A stretch of DNA of 64,000 nucleotides, from the NCBI RefSeq assembly GCF_004345665.1, contig NZ_SLWR01000001.1, positions 372,001-436,000 of the forward strand. Direction: 5' to 3'. The notes beneath the pieces are model-generated. The model searched no databases and was not told where the DNA came from. It was given only the letters and a program-made list of their open reading frames with translations. A program made the position numbers and the translations under genes. Every line of letters begins with the position of its first letter. Position 1 is the stretch's first letter. Of the stretch, positions 13,938-31,330 are shown one piece after another. The DNA is from Kribbella antiqua. GTDB lineage: Bacteria; Actinomycetota; Actinomycetes; Propionibacteriales; Kribbellaceae.

Positions 13938-14798
13938 GTGGACGACCTGGCGGAACGGTTCCAGCAGGAACGCGGCAAGCTGCGCGCGGTCGCCTACCGG
14001 ATCCTCGGCTCGGAAACGGAGGCCGAGGACGCATTGCAGGAAGCGTGGATCCGGCTCGGGCGCGTCGATGGGGTCGAGAATCTCGGCGGCTGGCTGCGGA
14101 CGGTGGTGACGCGCATCTGCCTCGACATGCTTCGCTCGCGGACGGTACGGCGGGAAGACCTCGGCACGGTCCTTGACGAAGTCGCCGCGCCTCGCAGTAC
14201 GCCGTCGCCGGAGGACGAGGCGCTGGTCGCCGACTCGGTCAGCCGGGCGCTGCTCGTCGTACTGGACACGCTAGAGCCGGCTGAGCGGATCGCGTTCGTG
14301 CTGCACGACATGTTTGCCGTACCGTTCGCCGACATCGCACCGATCGTCGAGCGGACGCCGGTCGCAACCAAGAAACTCGCCAGCCGGGCGCGGCAGAAGG
14401 TGCAGGGGTGTCCGGTCGTCCCCGCCGCCGAGCTGGACCGTCAACGCCGCACGATCTCCGCCTTCCTCAATGCCGCGCGCGCGGGCGACCTCACCGCCGT
14501 ACTGGATGTGCTGGACCCGGACGTCGTACGCCGCGTCGACGCCACGGCCCTGGCACCCGGCATGTCCCCCGAACTCCGCGGCGCCCGAGCAGTCGCCGAA
14601 GGCACCGTCGCCCTGGCCGCCCGCTCTCAGCTGGCCGAACTCGCCCTCATCAACGGCCGAGCCGGCGTCATCCTCGCGCCGCACGGCCGCCTGCTCCTAG
14701 CCATCACCTTCACGATCCCCGCCAACAAGATCACGTCGTACGACGTCATCGCCGACCCCACCCGCCTCAGCCAACTGACGCTAGCTGTCCTCGACTAG
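13938..14798 (+). CDS. ECF41-family sigma factor (SigJ-like) with SnoaL-like C-terminal domain
   Basis: A 286-residue sigma factor. Region 2 lies in LRAVAYRILGSETEAEDALQ and WIRLGRVDGVENLGGWL, region 4 in LEPAERIAFVLHDMFAVPF, and an extra C-terminal domain of about 110 residues (ISAFLNAARAGDLTAVLDVL onwards) resembles SnoaL/NTF2 folds. ECF41 factors are controlled by this fused domain instead of an anti-sigma protein. A GTG start with an AAAGGTG SD is used. The gene is divergent from the azoreductase, and both share ECF41-like promoters. Confidence 0.9.
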   Translation: MDDLAERFQQERGKLRAVAYRILGSETEAEDALQEAWIRLGRVDGVENLGGWLRTVVTRICLDMLRSRTVRREDLGTVLDEVAAPRSTPSPEDEALVADSVSRALLVVLDTLEPAERIAFVLHDMFAVPFADIAPIVERTPVATKKLASRARQKVQGCPVVPAAELDRQRRTISAFLNAARAGDLTAVLDVLDPDVVRRVDATALAPGMSPELRGARAVAEGTVALAARSQLAELALINGRAGVILAPHGRLLLAITFTIPANKITSYDVIADPTRLSQLTLAVLD

Positions 14799-22832: not shown

Positions 22833-22953
22833 CGGACCTATCGTTTCGCCCATGATGGTCGACATTTGCCCACCCGACCCGCTGGCCACACCACCTCAAC
22901 GGCGCCCAACCCACCCCGCAGCGATCGACCCGAGCCCGGCGCCAGCCCTCCCG
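22833..22953. other. Short non-coding gap before the tRNA-cluster repeat arm
   Basis: No gene is evident. The last part (from about 22930) still shows weak inverted similarity to 31233-31255, so the repeat boundary is gradual here. Confidence 0.4.
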
Positions 22954-23097
22954 ACCTCACCTTGAGAACCCCTCAACCATTCCGAGCGCACCGAAATGGT
23001 CGGTGCGTGCTCAAGGTCAGAGCTCGCGAAGGCGACGCCCCAGTCAGGGAGCCGGCCCGCGGCGAGCCACCCAAGCCCATAACTGTTCAGCGGCCCT

Positions 23098-23285
23098 CAG
23101 CCCAAACCGGGAACCACACCACCGCGTGCCCGGAAACCGAACCGCGGCGCCCAGCCCAAGCCGACAACCAAACCACGGCGAGCAACCCCAACCGGGAACC
23201 CAACCAGCACGGGCAACCCAAGCCGGCAACCGAACTGCGGCGGGCAACCCACGCCGGCCACTCAACCGCGGCGATCGGCCACCGG
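23098..23285 (-). repeat. Degenerate ~30-bp tandem repeat array, left arm
   Basis: Imperfect units combining CGCCGCGGTTCGGTTGCC and GGCTTGGGTTGC (minus-strand reading) recur with about 30-base period. The array lies downstream of tRNA-Val on the same strand and has fewer units than its counterpart in the right arm. Confidence 0.7.
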
Positions 23286-23367
23286 AGCCGAGCGAAGCGA
23301 AGGCGCAAGGGGGTGCGGGTGGCGAAGCCCCCGCCGCGCGGCAAGCGAAGCGCAGCCGCACAAATAA

Positions 23368-23420
23368 CGAAGGCGAGGCGGTCTGCGCACTCCGCAGACA
23401 CACCTCGCCCATCGCCTTCG
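23368..23420 (-). terminator. Hairpin terminator of the left tRNA cluster
   Basis: Immediately after tRNA-Val on the minus strand, CGAAGGCGA and TCGCCTTCG pair as an outer stem, with GTCTGCG/CGCAGAC as an inner stem, followed by TTATTTG. This is the mirror of the structure at 30642-30694. Confidence 0.7.
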
Positions 23421-23492
23421 TGGACGATACTGGGATCGAACCAGTGACCTCTTCCGTGTCAGGGAAGCGCGCTACCGCTGCGCCAATCGTCC
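23421..23492 (-). tRNA. tRNA-Val (GAC)
   Basis: A 72-base tRNA with acceptor pair GGACGAT/ATCGTCC, T arm GGTTCGATCC and an anticodon loop CTGACAC (anticodon GAC). Identical to the copy at 30570-30641 in opposite orientation. CCA is not encoded. Confidence 0.95.
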
Positions 23493-23519
23493 AAAACCAA
23501 GAACCATGCGGGGTTCTCG

Positions 23520-23590
23520 AGGTGGAGACGGGATTCGAACCCGTGTACACGGCTTTGCAGGCCGTTGCCTCGCCTCTCGGCCACTCCACC
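23520..23590 (-). tRNA. tRNA-Cys (GCA)
   Basis: A 71-base tRNA with acceptor pair GGTGGAG/CTCCACC, anticodon stem CGGC/GCCG and loop CTGCAAA (anticodon GCA). Identical to the copy at 30472-30542. Confidence 0.95.
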
Positions 23591-23639
23591 ACTGAGGCTG
23601 TTCGACACTTGAGGACGGTGGCCTGCCGAACCCTCTCCG

Positions 23640-23712
23640 AGCGGACGACCGGGTTCGAACCGGCGACCTCAACCTTGGCAAGGTTGCGCTCTACCAACTG
23701 AGCTACGTCCGC
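23640..23712 (-). tRNA. tRNA-Gly (GCC)
   Basis: A 73-base tRNA with acceptor pair GCGGACG/CGTCCGC, anticodon stem CAACC/GGTTG and loop TTGCCAA (anticodon GCC). First gene of the left cluster; identical to 30350-30422. Confidence 0.95.
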
Positions 23713-23750
23713 ATCGCGACCGGCTTTTTGTTTCCCCCGGCGCGAGAAGA

Positions 23751-23778
23751 ACATTAGCCCATCTCCGCCGGAGTTCAA
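23751..23778 (-). promoter_or_regulatory. Sigma-70-like promoter of the left tRNA cluster
   Basis: On the minus strand TTGAAC (23778-23773) and TAATGT (23756-23751) are separated by 16 bases, about 38 bases before tRNA-Gly. This is a good housekeeping promoter. The right-hand cluster has a different upstream sequence with only a weaker match. Confidence 0.6.
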
Positions 23779-23888
23779 AAATCGGGGTCCCCCGGACGTC
23801 GACGTACGGTCATCAACCGGTCACCTTCGGACTGCCTGACGAGCCCGGATCGCCTGCACACTAAGGTGTTCCGCGGAAGGAGCACCAC

Positions 23889-24707
23889 ATGCGTATCTGG
23901 CTGAACGGGGCCCTGCAGGACGACCAGGCGACGGTCTCGCCGCTGGATCACGGCCTGACCACCGGCGACGGAGTGTTCGAGACGATCAAGATCGTCCACG
24001 GCCGTCCGTTCGCGGTGACGAAGCATCTGGAGCGGCTGGTCCGGTCCGCGGTCGGCCTCGGTCTGCCGGAGCCCGAGGTGGCGCGGATCGAGGAGGGCAT
24101 CGCGGCGGTGGTGAAGGCCGAGCCGGACATCCCGTTCGGCCGGCTGCGGATCACGTACACCGGCGGTGTCTCGCCGCTGTCGTCCGATCGCGGTACGTCC
24201 GGCCCGACGATCGTGGTCGCCGCGCAGGCGATCCAGCGGCCGGCGCCGACGTCGACGATCGTCACCGTGCCGTGGGTCCGCAACGAACGCAGCGCGGTCG
24301 CCGGTCTGAAGACGACGTCGTACGCCGAAAACGTCCGCGCGCTCGCCTACGCCAAGGAGCGCGGCGGCAGCGAGGCGATCTTCGCCAACACAGTCGGGAA
24401 TCTCTGCGAGGGCACGGGTTCGAACATCTTCTGCGTGTACGACGGTGAGCTCGTCACGCCGACCCTGGAGTCCGGCGCACTGGCGGGCGTGACGCGAGCG
24501 CTCGTACTCGCGTGGTTCGGTGCAGTCGAGCGGGATGTGCCGATCGAGCGGCTCTACGAGGCCGAGGAGATCTTCCTCACATCGACCACCCGCGACATCC
24601 AAGCCATCCACCGCGTCGACGACCACAACCTCCCCGCCCCCGGCAAAATCACCACAGCCGTCGCGGAGGTCTTCAAAACCCGCTCAGCCGAAGACCCAAA
24701 CCCGTAA
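23889..24707 (+). CDS. Aminodeoxychorismate lyase-like fold-IV PLP enzyme
   Basis: A 272-residue class IV PLP enzyme. The N-terminal LDHGLTTGDGVFETIKI is the PabC/D-amino-acid transaminase start; GLKTTSYAENVRALAYAK contains the PLP lysine, and EGTGSNIFCVYDGEL the phosphate-binding region. This matches 4-amino-4-deoxychorismate lyase, which makes p-aminobenzoate for folate, but branched-chain or D-amino-acid transaminases share the fold. SD GGAAGGAG lies eight bases before ATG. It lies just outside the left tRNA arm. Confidence 0.82.
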   Translation: MRIWLNGALQDDQATVSPLDHGLTTGDGVFETIKIVHGRPFAVTKHLERLVRSAVGLGLPEPEVARIEEGIAAVVKAEPDIPFGRLRITYTGGVSPLSSDRGTSGPTIVVAAQAIQRPAPTSTIVTVPWVRNERSAVAGLKTTSYAENVRALAYAKERGGSEAIFANTVGNLCEGTGSNIFCVYDGELVTPTLESGALAGVTRALVLAWFGAVERDVPIERLYEAEEIFLTSTTRDIQAIHRVDDHNLPAPGKITTAVAEVFKTRSAEDPNP

Positions 24708-25123
24708 CAACCGTCAACCACGCAGACGCCAGACGGAGCCGGACGCTGAAGCCTTCGAATCGCCTGGTGACGCACCGCATGGGTGACCTGGCGTCGAGTG
24801 TCAGGACTGTGTCATCGACAGTGGCTACCTTGTCGCCGGCAATCGCTTACCGGCGACCATTTCCCCACAGTCGACAACATGACCCTCTTCAAGCGACCGC
24901 GACTGAAGCCACCGGCGCCGAGTCATTCCGCAGGAGGCTGGACCGCTGTCTGTGACTGGGGGCATCCGATCCAGCGCCAACTGAATGGCATTCGGGTTGC
25001 CGCGTCGTGGCCTGGCGGCACGCCGGTTTGAGGTGTAGTCAGTTCCGCAGCGCGCTTGGCCGGCGGCGTGCTCGGGCTTGCAGCGTGTCGCCGTACTGGC
25101 GCATCGCTGCGGGCTTGGGGTGG
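24708..25123. other. 415-base intergenic stretch without a recognised gene
   Basis: No reading frame here looks coding. GTCGCCGG (24832-24839) and CCGGCGAC (24850-24857) form a perfect 8-bp stem with a ten-base loop, a possible terminator for the upstream gene. Confidence 0.5.
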
Positions 25124-25684
25124 TTACTCGCCGGAGGCTTTGCGGCGTTCGCGGTAGGCGGCTACATGGAGGCGGTTGCCGCAGGTGCGGGCGTCGCAGT
25201 AGCGCTTGGAACGGTTGCGGGACAGGTCGATCAGGGCGTCGTCGCAGTCCGGGGCCTCGCAGCGGCGGAGGCGTTCGCGTTCGCCGGCCGAGATCACCTG
25301 GGCGAGCGCGATCCCGCACTCCACCGTGATCCGGCAGGCCAGCGACGCGCCGTCGCGCGAGTAATGGATGTGCCACGGATGGCCGTCATGGTTGGTCAAC
25401 CGCGGCGTCGTCGTACCGCGCGCGACGATCGCGTTGATCATCGCCGCCGCGGTGGCGTCGGAGTCCGTGGTGAAGACCGGCGAGAACAGCGGCCGCAGAT
25501 CCCGGACCTCGGCCAGGTCCTTCTCCGTCAGCGTGCCGACCGCGCTGAACTCCCGCTCCTGGACGAACTTCTCCAGCTCTTCGAGCGTGTCCATCGTGTC
25601 GACCTGGCTGTTCGGCCCGGGCAGCGTGTTCACCAGCCGGACCAGCGTGCCGAGCGCCTGCTCGGTGTCGTGCGAGAAAGTCAC
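25124..25684 (-). CDS. CGNR zinc-finger regulator (ABATE domain)
   Basis: A 186-residue protein. The N-terminal part carries the ABATE-type stress-response domain beginning TEQALGTLVRLVNTLPG. The C-terminus is the CGNR zinc finger: RRCEAPDCDDALIDLSRN followed by RYCDARTCGNRLHVAAYR, giving C-x4-C and C-x4-C ligands and the CGNR signature. These are putative transcription factors common in actinobacteria; target genes are unknown. GGAG lies eight bases before the GTG at 25684, which favours it over the GTG at 25690. Confidence 0.87.
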   Translation of the reverse strand: MTFSHDTEQALGTLVRLVNTLPGPNSQVDTMDTLEELEKFVQEREFSAVGTLTEKDLAEVRDLRPLFSPVFTTDSDATAAAMINAIVARGTTTPRLTNHDGHPWHIHYSRDGASLACRITVECGIALAQVISAGERERLRRCEAPDCDDALIDLSRNRSKRYCDARTCGNRLHVAAYRERRKASGE

Positions 25685-25815
25685 AATCACGTCTCCAACG
25701 CGACGGGGTCTCCGTCTTGCAGCAAGAGTAGCCCGGCCCGATTAGATCGTCGCTGAATGATGCGCTATGGTTTCACCCGCAAGGCACCACAAGGCAACAT
25801 CAGTATCACCAGTAC

Positions 25816-25887
25816 GGGCGATTGGCGCAGTGGTAGCGCGCTTCGTTCACACCGAAGAGGTCACTGGTTCGAACCCAGTATCGCCCA
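25816..25887 (+). tRNA. tRNA-Val (CAC)
   Basis: A 72-base tRNA with acceptor pair GGGCGAT/ATCGCCC, D arm GCGCAGTGGTAGCGC, anticodon stem CTTCG/CGAAG and loop TTCACAC (anticodon CAC). It lies within the segment bounded by the inverted tRNA clusters and is followed by the same hairpin and repeat types. Confidence 0.95.
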
Positions 25888-25940
25888 CGAAGCCGAGAGG
25901 CGAGGTATGTCTGCGGAGAGCGCAGACGGCCTCGCCTTCG
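25888..25940 (+). terminator. Hairpin terminator after tRNA-Val(CAC)
   Basis: An inner stem GTCTGCG/CGCAGAC is nested in a partly conserved outer stem ending TCGCCTTCG. It is homologous to the hairpins after both tRNA-Val(GAC) genes, with substitutions. Confidence 0.65.
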
Positions 25941-26034
25941 TCATTTGTGCGGCTTCGCTCCGCTCGCCGCGCGGCGGGGGCTCAGCCACCCGCCCCCCTT
26001 GCGCCTTCGCTTCGCTCGGCTGCTGTGGCTGAGC

Positions 26035-26185
26035 ACGATGGATTGGTTGCCGGCGTGGGCTGGTCGCCACGGTTGTGTGGCCGGCTTGGGCTGAGCGCGC
26101 TGGTTTGGTTGCCGGCGTGGGTTGGCCGCGCGGTTTGTTGCCGGGCTTGGGCTGGTCGCCGCGGCTCGGTTGGCTAGGCACGCGG
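26035..26185 (+). repeat. Third degenerate ~30-bp repeat array, after tRNA-Val(CAC)
   Basis: Units such as TTGCCGGCGTGGGCTGGTCG and GCCGGCTTGGGCTGAGCGCG recur here in the same orientation as the tRNA. They resemble the arrays in both arms of the large inverted repeat. From 26186 to 26333 no gene is evident. Confidence 0.6.
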
Positions 26186-26333
26186 ACTCTGTCGTCGCGC
26201 GCTGCATCTACAGCCCCGTGATGTCGCCTGCGCGCCACCCGTCACGCCGGCGGGACTTGACCCGATGTCTCTTGCTTGGCGATGCACGAGCCGTGACTGT
26301 GCCGGTACGACGCGGGCTGTAGAAGTGCCAGTC

Positions 26334-27086
26334 TCACGCGGACTCGCAGATGCAGAGTTGAAGCGGCGTATCCACGGCAAATGGTCGACCGGACCAATCG
26401 CCGAAGCGCTCGACGAGCCGAAGGCCCCCGAGCGAGACGAGCAGCGGCAGCTCCTGCGGGAAAATGCACCTGATTTCGAGCGGTGCGACGACGAAGTCGG
26501 GCTCGGAGTCAGTCGAGAGGTACCACGTCCCGCGGGTGACTTGCGCGGGCGCATCGTAGATCTCAGCGACATCGACGCTGACGTTGCCACGGTCAGGATC
26601 CATGAACGACAACGACTCCCGGGTGCGCCGCACGCCATCGGCTTCGGCAAGTAGGCGCACGCTCGGGTTGAATACATCGAAGACGAACCGTGCTCCAGGC
26701 GACAGGTGTCTTCGAACCGACCGGAAGCAGCTCACCAGATCCTCAGCCTCATGCAGATGCAGCAAGGAATTGGCTGTGATGAACACGAAGTCGAATGTGC
26801 GGCCCAGATCGAAGGCCCGCATGTCGCCCTGCATCCATTCCACCGCTACACCGCGCTCGTTCGCCTTACGCTGAGCCTCAGCCAGCATGTCCGACGAGAA
26901 GTCCAGGCCGACGCACGGATGCCCGTCGGACGCGATGGGGACCAGCTTGTCCCCGGTGCCGCACCCGAGTTCCAATACGCTCCCGCCTTGCCGATTGACG
27001 TCGGCCCGGTAGAAGTCGACTGCGGGCCCGCCGCCCGGGAACATCAGGTCGTACAGCCTCGCGTGCGAGTAGAACGCTTGACTCAT
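26334..27086 (-). CDS. SAM-dependent methyltransferase
   Basis: A 250-residue class I methyltransferase. SVLELGCGTGDKLVPIA is motif I (SAM-binding GxGxG), VGLDFSSDMLAEA the acidic motif II, and FDFVFITANSLLHL motif IV. I chose ATG 27086 because AGGAGG lies nine bases upstream; an in-frame ATG nine bases earlier touches that SD. Substrate unknown; it belongs to the broad small-molecule methyltransferase group. Confidence 0.87.
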   Translation of the reverse strand: MSQAFYSHARLYDLMFPGGGPAVDFYRADVNRQGGSVLELGCGTGDKLVPIASDGHPCVGLDFSSDMLAEAQRKANERGVAVEWMQGDMRAFDLGRTFDFVFITANSLLHLHEAEDLVSCFRSVRRHLSPGARFVFDVFNPSVRLLAEADGVRRTRESLSFMDPDRGNVSVDVAEIYDAPAQVTRGTWYLSTDSEPDFVVAPLEIRCIFPQELPLLVSLGGLRLVERFGDWSGRPFAVDTPLQLCICESA

Positions 27087-27280
27087 TAAGCGCATCCTCC
27101 TTTCCAGCTCATCCGCAGTTGACCGTGTGGCGTGCTGATTCAAGCGAGTGCGCCGCCGACGTGTCTGCCGGTGGCTGCGTAGCAGGATACGAGCCTGGTA
27201 ATGCCGGTGGTTGCGGTAGCCGCGTGAACACCAGCTCGGATGGCTGGCTGCCGACCGCTCGACCCACGCAGCAAGTGCCT

Positions 27281-28015
27281 TCAGGCTGAGTTGGAGTGTT
27301 TGGGTGAGACGATTGATGGTGGAGCCTGGGCGAGCAGAGTGGGCATTTGCTCGAGAGTGAGGTCGACGAGCTCATGGCAATTTGGTTGGGCGCATTCGCA
27401 ATCGAATATGGCGGCCGGGCGGCTTCTTTCGGTTGATTGTTTGGCTAGTTGGCGGTTACTGATGCGAATTAAAGACTGTCGCTCGCTGATGGTGCGGGCT
27501 GCGGGGCTGGATTTCAGGATTGGGCCGAAGGACTGCTCTACCGCCATGAGGGTTTGCTCGATGGTTTGACCGTCGACCTCGATGACGGTTGCGGTGGTTC
27601 CCTCGAGTTGGGTGCGGACCAGGTCCCATCCCCAGACTTGGCCTTTGTGCGCGCCGCCTGGATTCCTGCGTTCCAGTCTTGTGAGTTGTTCCGCTTTGGA
27701 GGGCATCAGCCATACTGCGTTCTCGGCAACGCCGGCCATCGTGGGAGTGACGAATGCGCCTTCGACGACAACCGAGGTGTCCGTGGGCAATGACTGGATA
27801 TCTTCCATGATCATCGGCTTGCGGTCGAAGTCGCCTGGACCGGTTCCCAGGACATGCAGTCCGGCCGCGGCTGCGCGCTTCTCATGGGCGAATGCATAAG
27901 CATCTACGCCGTACCAGAGAAATCCATGCTTTCGGGCGAGTAGACGGCTCACCGTGGTCTTGCCCGCCGCCGCGGGACCGCCCACCCAGAAGATGCCCGC
28001 GCGCTCGTTAATCAT
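27281..28015 (-). CDS. P-loop kinase with a C-terminal CxCxxxxC tail
   Basis: A 244-residue protein. FWVGGPAAAGKTTVSRLLA is a Walker A loop typical of small-molecule or nucleotide kinases, followed by the lid-like LERRNPGGAHKGQVWGWD. After about residue 175 a separate segment begins, ISERQSLIRISNRQLAKQ, then FDCECAQPNCHELVDLTLEQ. It resembles small actinobacterial proteins carrying an F-x-C-E-C-x4-C motif that I cannot name. Fusion to a kinase is unusual. No SD is visible. Substrate unknown. Confidence 0.75.
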   Translation of the reverse strand: MINERAGIFWVGGPAAAGKTTVSRLLARKHGFLWYGVDAYAFAHEKRAAAAGLHVLGTGPGDFDRKPMIMEDIQSLPTDTSVVVEGAFVTPTMAGVAENAVWLMPSKAEQLTRLERRNPGGAHKGQVWGWDLVRTQLEGTTATVIEVDGQTIEQTLMAVEQSFGPILKSSPAARTISERQSLIRISNRQLAKQSTERSRPAAIFDCECAQPNCHELVDLTLEQMPTLLAQAPPSIVSPKHSNSA

Positions 28016-28114
28016 ATGAGGAGAGTTTAACGGCGTGTCGGATCGGGGGTGGAGCGTTCGTGGGAGTGGTGAGAGGCTCCCACGAAGGGGGCCTCAGGAC
28101 AGAGGAGATCGGTC

Positions 28115-28720
28115 ATGAAGCTGACGACGGTTACGAATGTTTCTGTTGACGGGGTGATGCAGGGGCTCGGCGGGGCGGAGGAGGATCGTCGGGGTGGGTT
28201 TGAGCGCGGCGGGTGGGCCTTGCCGTTGTTTCGCGGGGAGGCGGAGAGGCTTCTCGGTGAGGTGTATCAGCGTGCCGAAGCGTTTCTGTTCGGGCGGCGG
28301 ACGTACGAGATCTTTGCCGGCTCTTGGGGCGTGATGGAGGATCCGGGCAGTAGCCCGATCGGAGACGCTTTGAACTCGCGGCCGAAGTACGTCGCATCGG
28401 CCACGCTGACCGACCCGGAGTGGGCGGACACGACCGTCCTCGCCGGTGATGTCACGGCCGCCATCCGTGAGCTGAAAGCCAAGCCTGGGGGTGAGTTGCA
28501 GGTGCACGGCAGCGGCAAACTGGTGCGTTGGCTGTTCGACAATCAGCTTGTTGACGAGATCGTCCTGCTTACGTATCCCGTGGTGGTCGGCCAGGGCACG
28601 CGGCTGTTCTCTGACACGGGTCCGGACGCCGCGCTTGACGTGGTGGAATCGCGGTCCACACCGGAGGGGATCACGATCCAGGTCTACCGGCCCAACGGAC
28701 GGCCCCAGTATGCAGAGTGA
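28115..28720 (+). CDS. Dihydrofolate reductase family protein (RibD C-terminal-like)
   Basis: A 201-residue protein beginning MKLTTVTNVSVDGVMQGLGG, with FLFGRRTYEIFAGSWG and ELQVHGSGKLVRWL, the landmarks of the YyaP/YwjB-type DHFR-like reductase family, and LTYPVVVGQGTRLF near the C-terminus. These bind NADPH, but their physiological substrates are mostly unknown. SD AGGAG lies seven bases before ATG. Confidence 0.87.
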   Translation: MKLTTVTNVSVDGVMQGLGGAEEDRRGGFERGGWALPLFRGEAERLLGEVYQRAEAFLFGRRTYEIFAGSWGVMEDPGSSPIGDALNSRPKYVASATLTDPEWADTTVLAGDVTAAIRELKAKPGGELQVHGSGKLVRWLFDNQLVDEIVLLTYPVVVGQGTRLFSDTGPDAALDVVESRSTPEGITIQVYRPNGRPQYAE

Positions 28721-28726
28721 GATCGG

Positions 28727-29179
28727 TTAGACGAGCCAGGTGCCGTTTTTCATCAGGGTGCGGGTTTTCAGTTCGTTGACTTCGCGCCAGGCTTGGACCT
28801 TGGTGGGGGTCAGGCGGAAGTAGGGGTAGGGGTTGCCGGCCTGGCGGGGGTCGAAGCCGGCTTTGGCGGCGAAGGCTTCGGCTTCGGTGGGCGGTAGGTC
28901 AGTCGCGTGGATCAGGTCGGCGGTCGCGGTGATGTGGGTGACGTCTCGGGTGGGGCCGAGGGTCAGGTGGAGGGTGGGGTTCTGCGCAAGGTTCTGGGCG
29001 GTGGTGTTCGTGGCTGCCGTCGAGATCAGGAGGCTCTCGCCGTCCCAGAGGAACGAGAGGGGCATCAGGTACGGCGTACCGTCCGCGCCAGCCGTAGCCA
29101 CCCAGGCGTCGACGTCTTGCTCGAGGCGGCGGAGGGTGTCTTGTTTGCGTACCGACAGGGGGCGGGCCGGGTCTGTCAC
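28727..29179 (-). CDS. Pyridoxamine 5'-phosphate oxidase-family (split-barrel flavin/F420) protein
   Basis: A 150-residue split-barrel protein: VATAGADGTPYLMPLSFLWD and ISTAATNTTAQNLAQNPTLHL are the flavin/F420-binding segments of this superfamily. GTG 29179 has AAGGAG six bases upstream. It is divergent from an ECF41 sigma gene, and an exact ECF41 promoter match reads toward it. The short length and sequence suggest an F420- or FMN-binding redox protein of the MSMEG-type families; true pyridoxamine oxidase activity is unlikely. Confidence 0.83.
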   Translation of the reverse strand: MTDPARPLSVRKQDTLRRLEQDVDAWVATAGADGTPYLMPLSFLWDGESLLISTAATNTTAQNLAQNPTLHLTLGPTRDVTHITATADLIHATDLPPTEAEAFAAKAGFDPRQAGNPYPYFRLTPTKVQAWREVNELKTRTLMKNGTWLV

Positions 29180-29200
29180 GGTGAACTCCTTCGTCGCGGG

Positions 29201-29227
29201 TGTCACATGTGCGGGTGATTGTCCGTC
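29201..29227 (+). promoter_or_regulatory. ECF41 promoter of the sigma gene
   Basis: TGTCACA (29201-29207), a 16-base spacer and CGTC (29224-29227) match the published ECF41 target promoter exactly, reading toward the sigma gene at 29276. This implies autoregulation. Confidence 0.75.
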
Positions 29228-29235
29228 AGACCGAT

Positions 29236-29262
29236 GACGGCACGGGGCCGGAGTGTGTGACA
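29236..29262 (-). promoter_or_regulatory. ECF41 promoter of the divergent split-barrel gene
   Basis: On the minus strand TGTCACA (29262-29256), a 16-base spacer and CGTC (29239-29236) again match exactly. It reads toward the gene starting at 29179. Confidence 0.75.
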
Positions 29263-29275
29263 CGGTGAGAGGACT

Positions 29276-30157
29276 GTGGTCGAGATGGGTGAGCACGACT
29301 GGCTGGCAGCCCGGTTCGAGGAGAACCGGGAACACCTGGGCGCGGTCGCCTACCGGATCCTAGGATCCAGGGCCGAAGCCGAGGATGCGGTCCAGGAAAC
29401 GTGGATCCGGCTCAGCCGGTCGGACGCCGGCTCGATCGAGAATCTCGGCGGCTGGCTGACCACGGTCGTCGGGCGAATCTGCTTGGACATGCTGCGGTTG
29501 CGGCGGGGGCGGCCCGAGCAACCGGTCGGCGACCACTCCCCTGTACTGGCGGATGACGACGTACAGGATCCTGAGCTCGAGGCGGTGCAAGCTGACTCGG
29601 TTGGGCTGGCGCTGCTCGTCGTACTGGAGACGTTGACGCCGGCGGAGCGGCTGGCGTTCGTGTTGCACGACATGTTTGCGGTGCCGTTCGATGACATCGC
29701 GCCGATCGTGGGCAAGTCGCCGGCGGCGGCGCGGCAGTTGGCGAGCCGGGCGCGGCGGCGGGTTCAAGGTACGCCGGAGCCGCCGGACACGGATGCGAGC
29801 CGGCAGAAGGCGATCGTCGCCGCGTTCCTCGCCGCGTCGCGTGGTGGGGACTTCGAGGCGCTGCTCGAGTTGCTCGACCCTGGCGTCGTACTGCGGGCCG
29901 ACGAAGCGGTCGTGGCTCTCGGCGGCGCGGCCGCGATGGTGAGCGGTTCGGCTGCGGTCGCCGGGAACTTCTCAGGGCGGGCGCAGGCAGCCAAGCTCAC
30001 CCTGGTCGACGGGCTGGCGGGTCTCGTCTGGTCGCAGCACGGCGAACCGCGCGTGGTCTTCGCGTTCACGATCGTCGACGACCGCATCACCGCGATCGAA
30101 CTCCTCGGCGACCCGGACTACCTCCGTACGGTCGATCTCACTCCGATCGAAGCCTGA
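29276..30157 (+). CDS. ECF41-family sigma factor (SigJ-like)
   Basis: A 293-residue sigma factor with region 2 in LGAVAYRILGSRAEAEDAVQ, region 4 in LTPAERLAFVLHDMFAVPF, and a C-terminal SnoaL-like domain (IVAAFLAASRGGDFEALLEL). It resembles the ECF41 protein at 13938-14798 over its length. GTG 29276 or ATG 29285 may be the start. The two ECF41 loci in this window share gene order (oxidoreductase, divergent promoters, sigma). Confidence 0.9.
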   Translation: MVEMGEHDWLAARFEENREHLGAVAYRILGSRAEAEDAVQETWIRLSRSDAGSIENLGGWLTTVVGRICLDMLRLRRGRPEQPVGDHSPVLADDDVQDPELEAVQADSVGLALLVVLETLTPAERLAFVLHDMFAVPFDDIAPIVGKSPAAARQLASRARRRVQGTPEPPDTDASRQKAIVAAFLAASRGGDFEALLELLDPGVVLRADEAVVALGGAAAMVSGSAAVAGNFSGRAQAAKLTLVDGLAGLVWSQHGEPRVVFAFTIVDDRITAIELLGDPDYLRTVDLTPIEA

Positions 30158-30349
30158 GTTGTTGCCGGAGTACGACGTCCTGCGGGAGCGCCGGCGGCTC
30201 GTCGACGGGTGAGACTGGTGTGACGGGTGGGGTGAAAATCACGCTCCGGCGGTCCGGATCGCGACACCCCGGAATCTGGTTTTTGCAGACGGGAAAAGTG
30301 CGCTACTGTTCTGCTCTCGCACCGAGCAGGAACACCCCGCCGGAGCGAT

Positions 30350-30422
30350 GCGGACGTAGCTCAGTTGGTAGAGCGCAACCTTGCCAAGGTTGAGGTCGCC
30401 GGTTCGAACCCGGTCGTCCGCT
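30350..30422 (+). tRNA. tRNA-Gly (GCC)
   Basis: A 73-base tRNA identical to 23640-23712 on the opposite strand: acceptor GCGGACG/CGTCCGC and anticodon loop TTGCCAA. A weak promoter-like pair (TTGCAG at 30283-30288 and TACTGT at 30304-30309, 15-base spacer) lies upstream. Confidence 0.95.
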
Positions 30423-30471
30423 CGGAGAGGGTTCGGCAGGCCACCGTCCTCAAGTGTCGAACAGCCTCAGT

Positions 30472-30542
30472 GGTGGAGTGGCCGAGAGGCGAGGCAACGG
30501 CCTGCAAAGCCGTGTACACGGGTTCGAATCCCGTCTCCACCT
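30472..30542 (+). tRNA. tRNA-Cys (GCA)
   Basis: A 71-base tRNA identical to 23520-23590; acceptor GGTGGAG/CTCCACC and loop CTGCAAA. Confidence 0.95.
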
Positions 30543-30569
30543 CGAGAACCCCGCATGGTTCTTGGTTTT

Positions 30570-30641
30570 GGACGATTGGCGCAGCGGTAGCGCGCTTCCC
30601 TGACACGGAAGAGGTCACTGGTTCGATCCCAGTATCGTCCA
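30570..30641 (+). tRNA. tRNA-Val (GAC)
   Basis: A 72-base tRNA identical to 23421-23492; acceptor GGACGAT/ATCGTCC and loop CTGACAC. Confidence 0.95.
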
Positions 30642-30694
30642 CGAAGGCGATGGGCGAGGTGTGTCTGCGGAGTGCGCAGACCGCCTCGCCTTCG
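30642..30694 (+). terminator. Hairpin terminator of the right tRNA cluster
   Basis: Outer stem 30642-30650/30686-30694 (9 bp) and inner stem 30663-30669/30675-30681 (7 bp), followed by TTATTTG. It begins at the base after the tRNA discriminator, so it may also guide 3-prime processing. Confidence 0.7.
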
Positions 30695-30789
30695 TTATTT
30701 GTGCGGCTGCGCTTCGCTTGCCGCGCGGCGGGGGCTTCGCCACCCGCACCCCCTTGCGCCTTCGCTTCGCTCGGCTCCGGTGGCCGGTC

Positions 30790-31090
30790 GCCGCGGTTGA
30801 GTGGCTGGCTGGGGTTGCCCGCTCCAGTTGAGTTGCCGGCTGGGTCGTTCGCCGCGGTTCGGTTCCCGGCGTGGGTTGCCCGTGCTGGCCGGCAGTCCGC
30901 TTGGGTTACTCGCCGCGGTTCGGTTGCCGGCTTGGGTTGCCCGTGCTGGTTGGGTTCCCGGTTGGGGTTGCCCGCCGCTGGCCGGCTGTCCGCTTGGGTT
31001 GCTCGCCGTGGTTTGATTGTCGGCTTGGGCTGAGCGCCGCGGTTCGGTTTCCGGGCACGCGGTGGTGTGGTTCCCGGTTTGGGCTGAGGG
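30790..31090 (+). repeat. Degenerate ~30-bp tandem repeat array, right arm
   Basis: About ten imperfect units of the type CGCCGCGGTTCGGTTGCC plus GGCTTGGGTTGC. Unit boundaries are clear, but identity between units is only moderate. No gene is supported: all frames stay open here because the period is a multiple of three and GC is high. Confidence 0.7.
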
Positions 31091-31167
31091 CCGCTGAACA
31101 GTTATGGGCTTGGGTGGCTCGCCGCGGGCCGGCTCCCTGCCTGGGGCGTCGCCTTCGCTGAGCTTTG

Positions 31168-31226
31168 ACCTTGAGCACGCACCGACCATTTCGGCGCGGT
31201 CAGAATGGTTGAGGGGTGCTCAAGGT
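31168..31226. other. Nested hairpin at the end of the repeat arm
   Basis: ACCTTGAGCAC (31168-31178) pairs with GTGCTCAAGGT (31216-31226), and inside it ACCATT (31185-31190) pairs with AATGGT (31204-31209). The left arm conserves the inner stem and most of the outer one. Likely a terminator or structured RNA end. Confidence 0.55.
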
Positions 31227-31330
31227 GAGGTCAGGAGAGCTGGCCGGGCTTGAGTTGCTCGCCTCTTGTTGGCTGCTGGCTGAGGCCTGGGGAGAACTTG
31301 GCGAGGTCCGCGGTCTGTAGCTTCCGGTGC

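Follow-up and report, generated by a model that had tools for sequence, protein, structure and literature searches.

An inverted duplication of a tRNA-Gly/Cys/Val cluster, probably ancestral in Kribbella, and a conserved trailer behind stable RNA genes of actinomycetes

The 64-kb stretch of Kribbella antiqua DNA analysed here (the window; genome G000) contains a tRNA-Gly/Cys/Val cluster in two inverted copies. ARAGORN places Val(GAC)-Cys(GCA)-Gly(GCC) at 23420-23712 (minus strand) and Gly-Cys-Val at 30350-30642 (plus strand); together with inverted matches far beyond chance, these calls confirm the inverted duplication reported in a first-pass annotation of this DNA. The features of the arms and of the segment between them are:

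22941..23025, minus strand: arm end of the PabC-side arm, a palindrome with dispersed copies elsewhere in the genome
23026..23286, minus strand: GT-rich imperfect repeats in units of ~31 bp, PabC-side arm
23287..23419, minus strand: trailer element (three hairpins), PabC-side arm
23420..23492, minus strand: tRNA-Val(GAC), PabC-side arm, no encoded CCA (ARAGORN)
23519..23590, minus strand: tRNA-Cys(GCA), PabC-side arm (ARAGORN)
23639..23712, minus strand: tRNA-Gly(GCC), PabC-side arm (ARAGORN)
23751..23778, minus strand: putative promoter (TTGAAC-16-TAATGT) of the PabC-side cluster, for the most part conserved on the PabC side genus-wide (by eye)
23889..24707, plus strand: PabC-like gene (aminotransferase class IV), adjoining the presumed ancestral cluster
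25124..25690, minus strand: ABATE / CGNR zinc-finger regulator gene
25816..25888, plus strand: tRNA-Val(CAC) (ARAGORN)
25889..26020, plus strand: trailer element behind tRNA-Val(CAC)
29276..30157, plus strand: sigma-70 family (ECF) gene, adjoining the second cluster
30283..30309, plus strand: putative promoter of the second cluster, TTGCAG-15-TACTGT (by eye)
30350..30423, plus strand: tRNA-Gly(GCC), ECF-side arm (ARAGORN)
30472..30543, plus strand: tRNA-Cys(GCA), ECF-side arm (ARAGORN)
30570..30642, plus strand: tRNA-Val(GAC), ECF-side arm (ARAGORN)
30643..30775, plus strand: trailer element (three hairpins), ECF-side arm
30776..31158, plus strand: GT-rich imperfect repeats in units of ~31 bp, ECF-side arm, longer than the PabC-side array
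31160..31244, plus strand: arm end of the ECF-side arm, the dispersed palindrome

The two 293-bp clusters are 100% identical to each other and exact identity runs from 5 bp upstream of tRNA-Gly to 144 bp downstream of tRNA-Val. The first-pass annotation had put the identical tail at about 160 bases and set the arm boundary at the first base of tRNA-Gly, 5 bases too far in. An ungapped inverted match of 500 nt at 98% joins 23218-23717 to 30345-30844, and similarity returns further out, as had been noted, with 163 nt at 98% (23026-23188 and 30996-31158) and then 85 nt at 92% (22941-23025 and 31160-31244). The matching blocks are separated by the GT-rich array, whose length is unequal in the two arms. 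Inside the segment tRNA-Val(CAC) with its tail matches both arms at 89% over 183 nt; neither this gene nor the conserved structured element in the arms had been recognised in the first-pass annotation. The identical stretch is longer than common short reads and draft contigs of several relatives stop in or near an arm (L063-L067), as might be seen if one arm were an assembly duplicate or the orientation of the segment a scaffolding error. However, the arms differ past 144 bp and in array length, their flanks are unique and the same layout is found in single-contig genomes such as G012 and G016. The differences further out make a duplicate unlikely, and an assembly artefact of either kind seems to us very improbable.

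Both clusters are present in 31 of the 34 Kribbella genomes for which at least one arm was read, the second one beside ECF41- or PPOX-type genes in most two-arm genomes, whereas all six outgroup loci read hold a single cluster. Two clusters are the rule in the genus, and the earlier remark that a duplicated tRNA-Cys is uncommon fails within Kribbella. This distribution indicates that the duplication is old, dating from the Kribbella ancestor, and not specific to the strain. Arm-to-arm identity is 81-94% in 19 of 22 two-arm genomes compared (gaps counted as differences); the arms are identical in this genome, G019 and G049, and 98.9% identical in G021. Across species the arms group by side (13 changes against a shuffle mean of 21.9; 0/500 shuffles) in a tree with only 5 of 59 branches well supported, suggesting that most copies are orthologous by side and that the identical pairs look converted. 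Identity in these three genomes amid diverged arms elsewhere thus appears to reflect recent homogenisation, a signature that by itself does not tell conversion from crossover. A recent duplication in this strain would also account for 100% identity over 293 bp and the 144 bp beyond, but the duplication is common to the 31 Kribbella genomes with both arms read and the upstream sequences are mostly conserved by side. With its position shared by relatives, such an event would need independent re-duplication at the same place and we rejected it as hardly credible.

The layout of the locus has changed in the genus. In G049 the whole arm-to-arm segment, bounded by identical arms, lies the other way round with respect to the PMT/GHK and SDR2/RsgA flanks, a reversal that rests on one assembly in which a wrong orientation is possible. 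The sub-segment arm-PabC-ABATE-tRNA-Val(CAC) is reversed in 10 of 31 scored species; by gene order, and at the resolution of gene intervals and not of bases, its inversion ends fall in intervals holding the tails of tRNA-Val(GAC) and tRNA-Val(CAC). The window's layout is found in 20/31 species, and at least three layout changes are required among the 31 genomes (in the species tree 9 of 39 rows have under half of the columns). The first-pass proposal that the arms invite a flip of the segment therefore stands as far as differences between species go, through the G049 reversal and the ten smaller inversions. Against it would have spoken a fixed layout with diverged arms in all relatives, a picture that the genus approaches (20/31 for layout, 19/22 for divergence) but does not fully match, since in some lineages the arms have become alike again and the layout varies. 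Long near-identical inverted arms are present, as expected of an inverted repeat acting through homologous recombination, and both orientations occur, between species only (1 full and 10 block inversions in 31). Inversion between the arms has thus most likely occurred in nature, between species, judging from these gene orders.

Both presumed promoters lie just inside the segment. They were proposed from side-wise conservation of the upstream sequences, judged by eye, in place of a consensus scan: a sigma-70 consensus scan of 22900-31300 gave no promoter-like site (0.9 in shuffles) and flagged neither of them. Most of each is conserved by side; for the second cluster the second hexamer, with the bases around it, is mostly conserved on the ECF side genus-wide and the first hexamer is variable. 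The geometry agrees with the earlier suggestion that a flip would swap the promoters, since each would move to the other flank. This, and the occurrence of both orientations in the genus, could be read as a programmed switch in which the segment flips often within a population and alters expression of flanking or enclosed genes. Such a switch is improbable given that one order prevails in 20/31 species, that the arms have diverged in 19/22 genomes and that the flipped products bear the same tRNAs. Furthermore, a Pfam search (E up to 0.001) of 10 nearby ORFs, including 7 within the segment, found no recombinase domain. A closer parallel is the flip/flop region of Saccharomyces, where, according to PMC9731477, 4-kb inverted repeats undergo recurrent homogenisation and repeated inversions across the genus. 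The Kribbella arms are likewise kept alike, with inversions in the genus, but they are bacterial, only ~0.3-0.8 kb long and contain tRNA genes, with at least three changes among 31 species. They would represent a bacterial example in which tRNA genes are the site of both homogenisation and inversion.

The trailer is an element of ~130 nt with three hairpins that directly abuts the tRNA 3' end, hairpin 1 starting within ~10 nt of it. In Kribbella 98.0% of alignment cells are paired and 12 of 31 pairs have changed on both sides (0/500 shuffles), rising to 20/31 with other genera added in an alignment fitted to the model. Of 38 Kribbella genomes, 37 carry it. Copies follow tRNAs for Val, Ala, His, Tyr and Gly as well as tmRNA, and in Streptomyces, Actinoplanes and other genera they likewise follow tRNAs or tmRNA; by eye, copies also stand behind bL31-like and Lsr2-like genes. 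The order and class breadth searches filtered strictly and scored few candidates in each genome, and their counts (this genome included) are lower bounds. A called tRNA or tmRNA 3' end lies within 12 nt of 56 of 66 further copies and within 8 nt of 25 of 30 class-search loci (two places counted twice). An Rfam 15 scan (E up to 1) of five loci of this genome reached the gathering score only for tRNA and tmRNA, with two chance-level matches, one elsewhere (MIR1432) and one on the tmRNA itself, and we discarded the idea of a known RNA family. Among the open-access papers listed in short searches none has a title or abstract start that describes the trailer, and a search with its sequence letters gave no paper, which is not proof of novelty; the trailer is the more novel part of the arms compared with the inverted duplication.

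Several copies per genome, three of them in tandem in one Wenjunlia contig, could suggest a selfish palindromic repeat of REP or MITE type aimed at tRNA 3' ends. In accordance with this, unlinked copies of one genome are alike beyond permutation, with a peak over the 30 nt that follow hairpin 3 (0.797; permuted mean 0.726; 0/1000). Yet such repeats would be dispersed between genes of all kinds, whereas 105 of 126 matches to a hairpin-3 pattern (Kribbella included) fall 1-160 nt downstream of a tRNA or tmRNA, compared with 295 of 23,600 random points. In addition, copies of hairpin 1 resemble each other more at the same locus than within the same genome, and only 9 matches at E up to 1 were found in this genome. 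The window's copy, used as the one query, had no match in 50,697 phage and 72,556 plasmid records, which also led us to drop a phage or plasmid origin. A selfish element is therefore unlikely.

The best reading is that the trailer is a composite terminator and 3' trailer of highly expressed genes, with termination itself presumed. A stable GC-rich hairpin stands directly behind the gene, as in an intrinsic terminator, but the tail of hairpin 1, TTCGTYRTTTG, is a poor U-tract. A terminator scan of the window did not flag the hairpin 1 copies (5 terminator-like sites against 6.1 in shuffles). In M. tuberculosis and Streptomyces terminator structures often lack a U trail, according to PMC8355165. 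The intrinsic and hairpin-cluster terminators of that paper resemble the trailer in having GC-rich hairpins in a row directly behind the transcription unit; the trailer differs in that its sequence and structure are conserved across unlinked genes of several actinomycete genera and fixed at the tRNA 3' end. Should hairpin 1 stop all transcription, the conserved structure of hairpins 2 and 3 would call for another reason.

One less probable possibility is that the trailer is a functional RNA freed from the tRNA precursor as a 3' external transcribed spacer RNA, which may include a structural switch. By eye, the letters of loops and single strands are kept across genera, and two alternative helices with one strand in common (GAAGGCGA or GGCGAC with UCGCCUUC) each have paired changes. 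However, the direct repeat could come from slippage, and the second helix does not exceed shuffles in two of five measures (pair types 500/500 as high; pairs changed on both sides 29/500). A skew of T over A and G over C extends several hundred nt behind the trailer, as expected under read-through; it is weaker behind genus copies without the trailer, and outgroups have little or none, but such a skew is indirect. We may further speculate, also tentatively, about an undescribed actinomycete stable-RNA element with a role beyond termination, which would adopt two folds, steer CCA-less precursors to endonucleolytic 3' processing and release a structured spacer RNA, while its copies would swap sequence inside a genome and provide the homology for inverting tRNA clusters. 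An encoded CCA is found in 0/80 tRNA-Val genes with the trailer, 2/19 genus copies without it and 5/12 outgroup copies; within the genus this contrast is a weak link between trailer and CCA.

Taken together, the duplication, the identity of arms amid divergence, the differing gene orders and the conserved structure and placement of the trailer fit a single account, to which we assign a probability of roughly 0.68. A tRNA-Gly/Cys/Val operon beside pabC would have been duplicated in inverted orientation in the Kribbella ancestor, and both copies kept, each probably transcribed outward from its own putative promoter. In some lineages including this one, recombination between the arms, presumably homologous, would restore their identity by gene conversion, sometimes being resolved as a crossover that turned the intervening DNA around. 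Hairpin 1 most likely ends transcription, and hairpins 2 and 3 with the GT-rich array may act as a back-up terminator or read-through zone. The same trailer would also serve further stable RNA genes, along with a few protein genes of presumed high expression, its copies probably exchanging sequence within a genome.

To our knowledge, there is no well-settled view of how high-GC actinomycetes, in the absence of clear U-tract terminators, end and mature their tRNA transcripts. A trailer of conserved sequence common to tRNAs and tmRNA provides a concrete target for this question and could join RNA family libraries. The rtT repeats of E. coli tyrT (Rfam RtT) are likewise a repeated structured tail behind a tRNA gene; they take in the tRNA 3' end and are part of a single operon, whereas the units of the Kribbella array are devoid of tRNA sequence (by eye) and the trailer stands on many unlinked genes. 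RtT, presumably among the 4227 Rfam families scanned, gave no match at E up to 1 in the five loci of this genome. The trailer can also be likened to the E. coli rrA, rrB and rrF RNAs, which according to PMC8144298 are near-identical sequences behind several stable RNA operons; they lie between the double terminators of rRNA operons, are reached when the first terminator is read through and are reported as transcribed. These follow rRNA, while the trailer follows tRNA and tmRNA and is known here from its sequence. Some tRNA-Val genes that have no trailer are followed in the same position by plain hairpins, as in the second cluster of G005, G012 and G023 (by eye).

The window holds the same tRNA cluster in two inverted copies, or arms, one on the pabC side and one on the ECF side, and a separate tRNA-Val lies between them:

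23420-23712, minus strand: tRNA Val-Cys-Gly genes, pabC-side arm
25816-25888: tRNA-Val(CAC), within the arm-to-arm segment
30350-30642, plus strand: tRNA Gly-Cys-Val genes, ECF-side arm
22941-23030 and 31154-31244: palindrome at the outer ends of both arms

The two clusters are identical over 293 bp, which confirms the first-pass annotation for the three tRNAs and their spacers. Exact identity continues past tRNA-Val, for 144 bases rather than the roughly 160 that had been proposed, and it also runs 5 bases past tRNA-Gly, so that the arm boundary does not fall at the first base of this gene as had been thought. The outer parts of the arms match as well (163 nt at 98% and 85 nt at 92%), and between these matches lies an array of imperfect GT-rich 31-bp repeats that differs in length from arm to arm. 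The outermost 85-90 bases form an imperfect palindrome, and this palindrome recurs as a dispersed repeat in the genome (29 matches listed at E up to 0.01, some sites counted on both strands), possibly a REP/MITE-like family. A second ECF41-like coding stretch was seen at 13941-14783, 52% identical to the one at 29276-30157.

The age of the duplication was judged from a search for the cluster in 39 genomes, 25 Kribbella (including that of the window) and 14 of the same order, and from layouts read in the 25 and in ten more Kribbella genomes. An arm was read in 34 of these Kribbella genomes (the contig of G009 has none) and both clusters in 31 of the 34. A single cluster was read whole in G001 and G015, on short contigs, and in the single-contig genome G043 within the 14 kb read, from which the second cluster of G043 may have been lost. 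At all six outgroup loci the stretch read contains a single cluster, close to pabC and Val(CAC), which makes the pabC-side copy the probable ancestor.

Across 22 two-arm genomes, gaps counted, cluster identity between arms was 100% in the window's genome and G019, 98.9% in G021 and 81.4-94.4% for the remaining 19. Some of those pairs differ chiefly in how long the spacers are (in G007 the 274 aligned bases hold 2 mismatches). G049 was the third genome with an identical pair, in the set that included it. In a tree of 65 arms from 34 genomes the side labels require 13 changes against a shuffled mean of 21.9, fewer than in any of 500 shuffles, so that most arm copies stay on their side; 5 of the 59 inner branches were well supported, and no weight is put on single placements. 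By eye, the 95 bases 5' of tRNA-Gly are unlike between sides and mostly alike across species within a side (TTTTTGAAC ... GCTAATGTTCTTCTCGCGCC on the pabC side, TTTTTG ... AAAGTGCGCTACTGTTCTGCTCTCGCAC on the ECF side); G003 and G022 are among the exceptions. These upstream sequences look like two separate putative promoters; a consensus promoter scan flagged neither.

The arms had been expected to invite recombination that flips the segment, and comparison with related genomes bears this out in part: gene order, scorable in 31 genomes, does vary, but 20 of the 31 have the window's order. In ten the block arm-pabC-ABATE-Val(CAC) is reversed, which leaves the two arms in direct orientation, and in one, G049, the whole arm-to-arm segment is reversed between its PMT/GHK and SDR2/RsgA flanks. 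Some scores are thinner, G043 being scored from the pabC-side flank alone, G013, G018, G045 and G050 from one flank and G021 from two contigs. On a five-protein tree at least three order changes are needed (shuffled mean 9.6), and two of the three concern the block inversion, which may have arisen as two gains or as one gain and one reversal. Inversion ends were placed by gene order, not to the base. Those of the block fall within intervals holding the tails behind the cluster tRNA-Val, Val(GAC), and behind Val(CAC), which in the window's order are inverted repeats of each other (89% over 183 nt); the G049 reversal ends at its arms, identical over the cluster and 221 bases beyond. These positions match what recombination between repeats predicts, an agent that we infer. 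For inverted repeats that are homogenised and flip, the closest parallel is the Saccharomyces flip/flop region (PMC9731477).

The sequence common to the tails of tRNA-Val in both arms also lies behind Val(CAC), tmRNA and tRNA-His of this genome, as a trailer element of about 130 nt with three hairpins numbered from the tRNA. In the first 25 Kribbella genomes read, 54 copies abut tRNA-Val genes; 50 of these were aligned with two copies from this genome, one behind tmRNA and one behind tRNA-His. The alignment supports the three hairpins, with 98.0% of cells paired, 12 of 31 pairs changed on both sides (shuffled mean 6.9, 0/500 shuffles as high) and a covariation score of 0.201 against 0.092 (0/500); pair types are less clear (23 vs 20.4, 35/500). 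Among 48 matches including other genera, in an alignment fitted to the model, 20 of 31 pairs changed on both sides and 0/500 shuffles reached any of five measures. Taken singly, four copies have folds 2.6-4.5 standard deviations below those of shuffles. A second helix using the 3' strand of hairpin 1 has 93.5% of cells paired, paired changes in 3 of 8 pairs (29/500 shuffles as high) and covariation of 0.171 against 0.086 (0/500); one of its pairs is unpaired in 23 of 52 rows and its pair types are not above shuffles. A scan of the trailer against Rfam gave no match.

For hairpin 1, similarity is higher between copies at one locus in different genomes (0.740) than between copies at unlinked loci within a genome (0.703, still slightly above permuted labels: mean 0.683, 3/1000). 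The reverse holds for the 30 nt after hairpin 3: copies within a genome score 0.797 (permuted mean 0.726, 0/1000), those that share a locus in different genomes 0.724 and the same locus in the nearest relative 0.795. The core is intermediate (0.901 vs 0.897; permuted 0.882, 0/1000). By these comparisons the terminator-like stem goes mainly with its gene, and the part downstream of it is exchanged among copies of one genome. Past the element the sense strand is enriched in T and G, its AT skew falling from 0.65 at 120 nt to about 0.1 by 700 nt (80 tails); the skew is weaker in 19 Kribbella tails lacking the element and little or none in 12 outgroup tails. Since such skew is known from strands exposed by transcription, one reading is read-through.

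Most likely, each cluster would be transcribed outward from its own putative promoter, hairpin 1, about 10 nt or less from the tRNA end, would stop most polymerases, and hairpins 2-3 with the array would act on the remainder. Where a tRNA gene lacks CCA, RNase Z or another endonuclease cuts the 3' end and CCA is then added; because CCA is encoded in none of the 80 tRNA-Val genes carrying the element, their 3' ends would be made in this way. Among the nearest kinds to the trailer is E. coli rtT. Others are hairpin-cluster terminators (PMC8355165) and the rrA/B/F RNAs (PMC8144298). The available part of a Streptomyces sRNA prediction (PMC2422843) gives tRNA-Lys, tRNA-Ala, tRNA-Gly and tmRNA as standards that it recovered and describes no shared tail, nor does that of the S. 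clavuligerus transcript-end work (PMC8269248).

A model search of this genome found seven copies at E up to 1.1e-8 and two weak ones at about 0.002. Seven of the nine lie directly behind RNA genes: the weak pair behind Arg(CCG) and Ser(GCT), the others behind Val(GAC) (two copies), Val(CAC), tmRNA and His. A lone copy (L079, G000:C4:260960-261098) is found some 300 nt downstream of Ala(CGC), a tRNA that carries a simple hairpin of its own; by eye, the bases preceding the copy are faintly like a tRNA 3' end. A trailer-like copy (L080, G000:C3:189268-189387) follows a gene named Lsr2-like by eye. In Kribbella, 37 of 38 genomes have 3-10 copies each, and G051 alone gave no match at E up to 0.001. 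Among the matches listed, 66 further Kribbella copies were fetched, and for 56 of them a called RNA gene lies no more than 12 nt away (23 Ala, 23 His, 5 Gly, 3 Tyr, 1 tmRNA and 1 Val, the tRNA-Val(GAC) of G044). By eye, the other ten comprise two behind tmRNA 3' sequence, three behind tRNA-Tyr 3' sequence, two behind a bL31-like gene and three unclear or fragment-like. The trailer-like copies behind bL31-like genes, identified by eye, are:

L125: behind a bL31-like gene
L167: behind a bL31-like gene

That copies also lie behind bL31-like and Lsr2-like genes suits a terminator serving highly expressed genes better than a part confined to tRNAs.

Val(CAC) lacks the trailer at L040 (G002), L045 (G007), L048 (G010), L054 (G016) and L058 (G020), where similar sequence, to the eye integrase-like, comes after it. 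Elsewhere in the region, G001, G002, G010 and G016 have a 40-nt tRNA 3' fragment, which adjoins a trailer copy in G010. The pattern resembles what a mobile element would leave on integrating into the tRNA. At the Streptomyces loci L237, L252, L254, L300 and L344 the element was also seen by eye behind tRNA-Lys 3' fragments uncalled by ARAGORN, suggesting integration sites.

Matches were found in 41 of 245 genomes of the order, four of the 41 outside Kribbella, and, this genome included, in 16 of 345 genomes of the class, or with a second model in 18 of 394 genomes and 8 of 138 genera. Thirty loci were drawn from the class searches, two places appearing twice. In 25 the element is within 8 nt of the 3' end of Lys(CTT), Val, Ala, Arg(ACG), Pro(GGG), Ile(GAT) or tmRNA; three lie 39-250 nt behind a tRNA or tmRNA and two have none. 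Scanning named genomes with just hairpin 3 gave at least 126 distinct matches at at least 118 loci in at least 12 genera. Among those listed, 76 are from Streptomyces and 32 from Kribbella, followed by Wenjunlia, Actinoplanes, Dactylosporangium, Sinosporangium, Actinacidiphila, Nocardioides, Yinghuangia, Winogradskya, Rhizohabitans and Paractinoplanes. Of the 126 listed, 105 lie 1-160 nt behind a same-strand tRNA or tmRNA (random points at the same loci: 295/23,600), and 11 of the other 21 follow, by eye, tRNA or tmRNA 3' sequence that was uncalled or just out of range. At L261, in Wenjunlia tyrosinilytica, three hairpin-3 copies occur at one place with 103-bp spacing.
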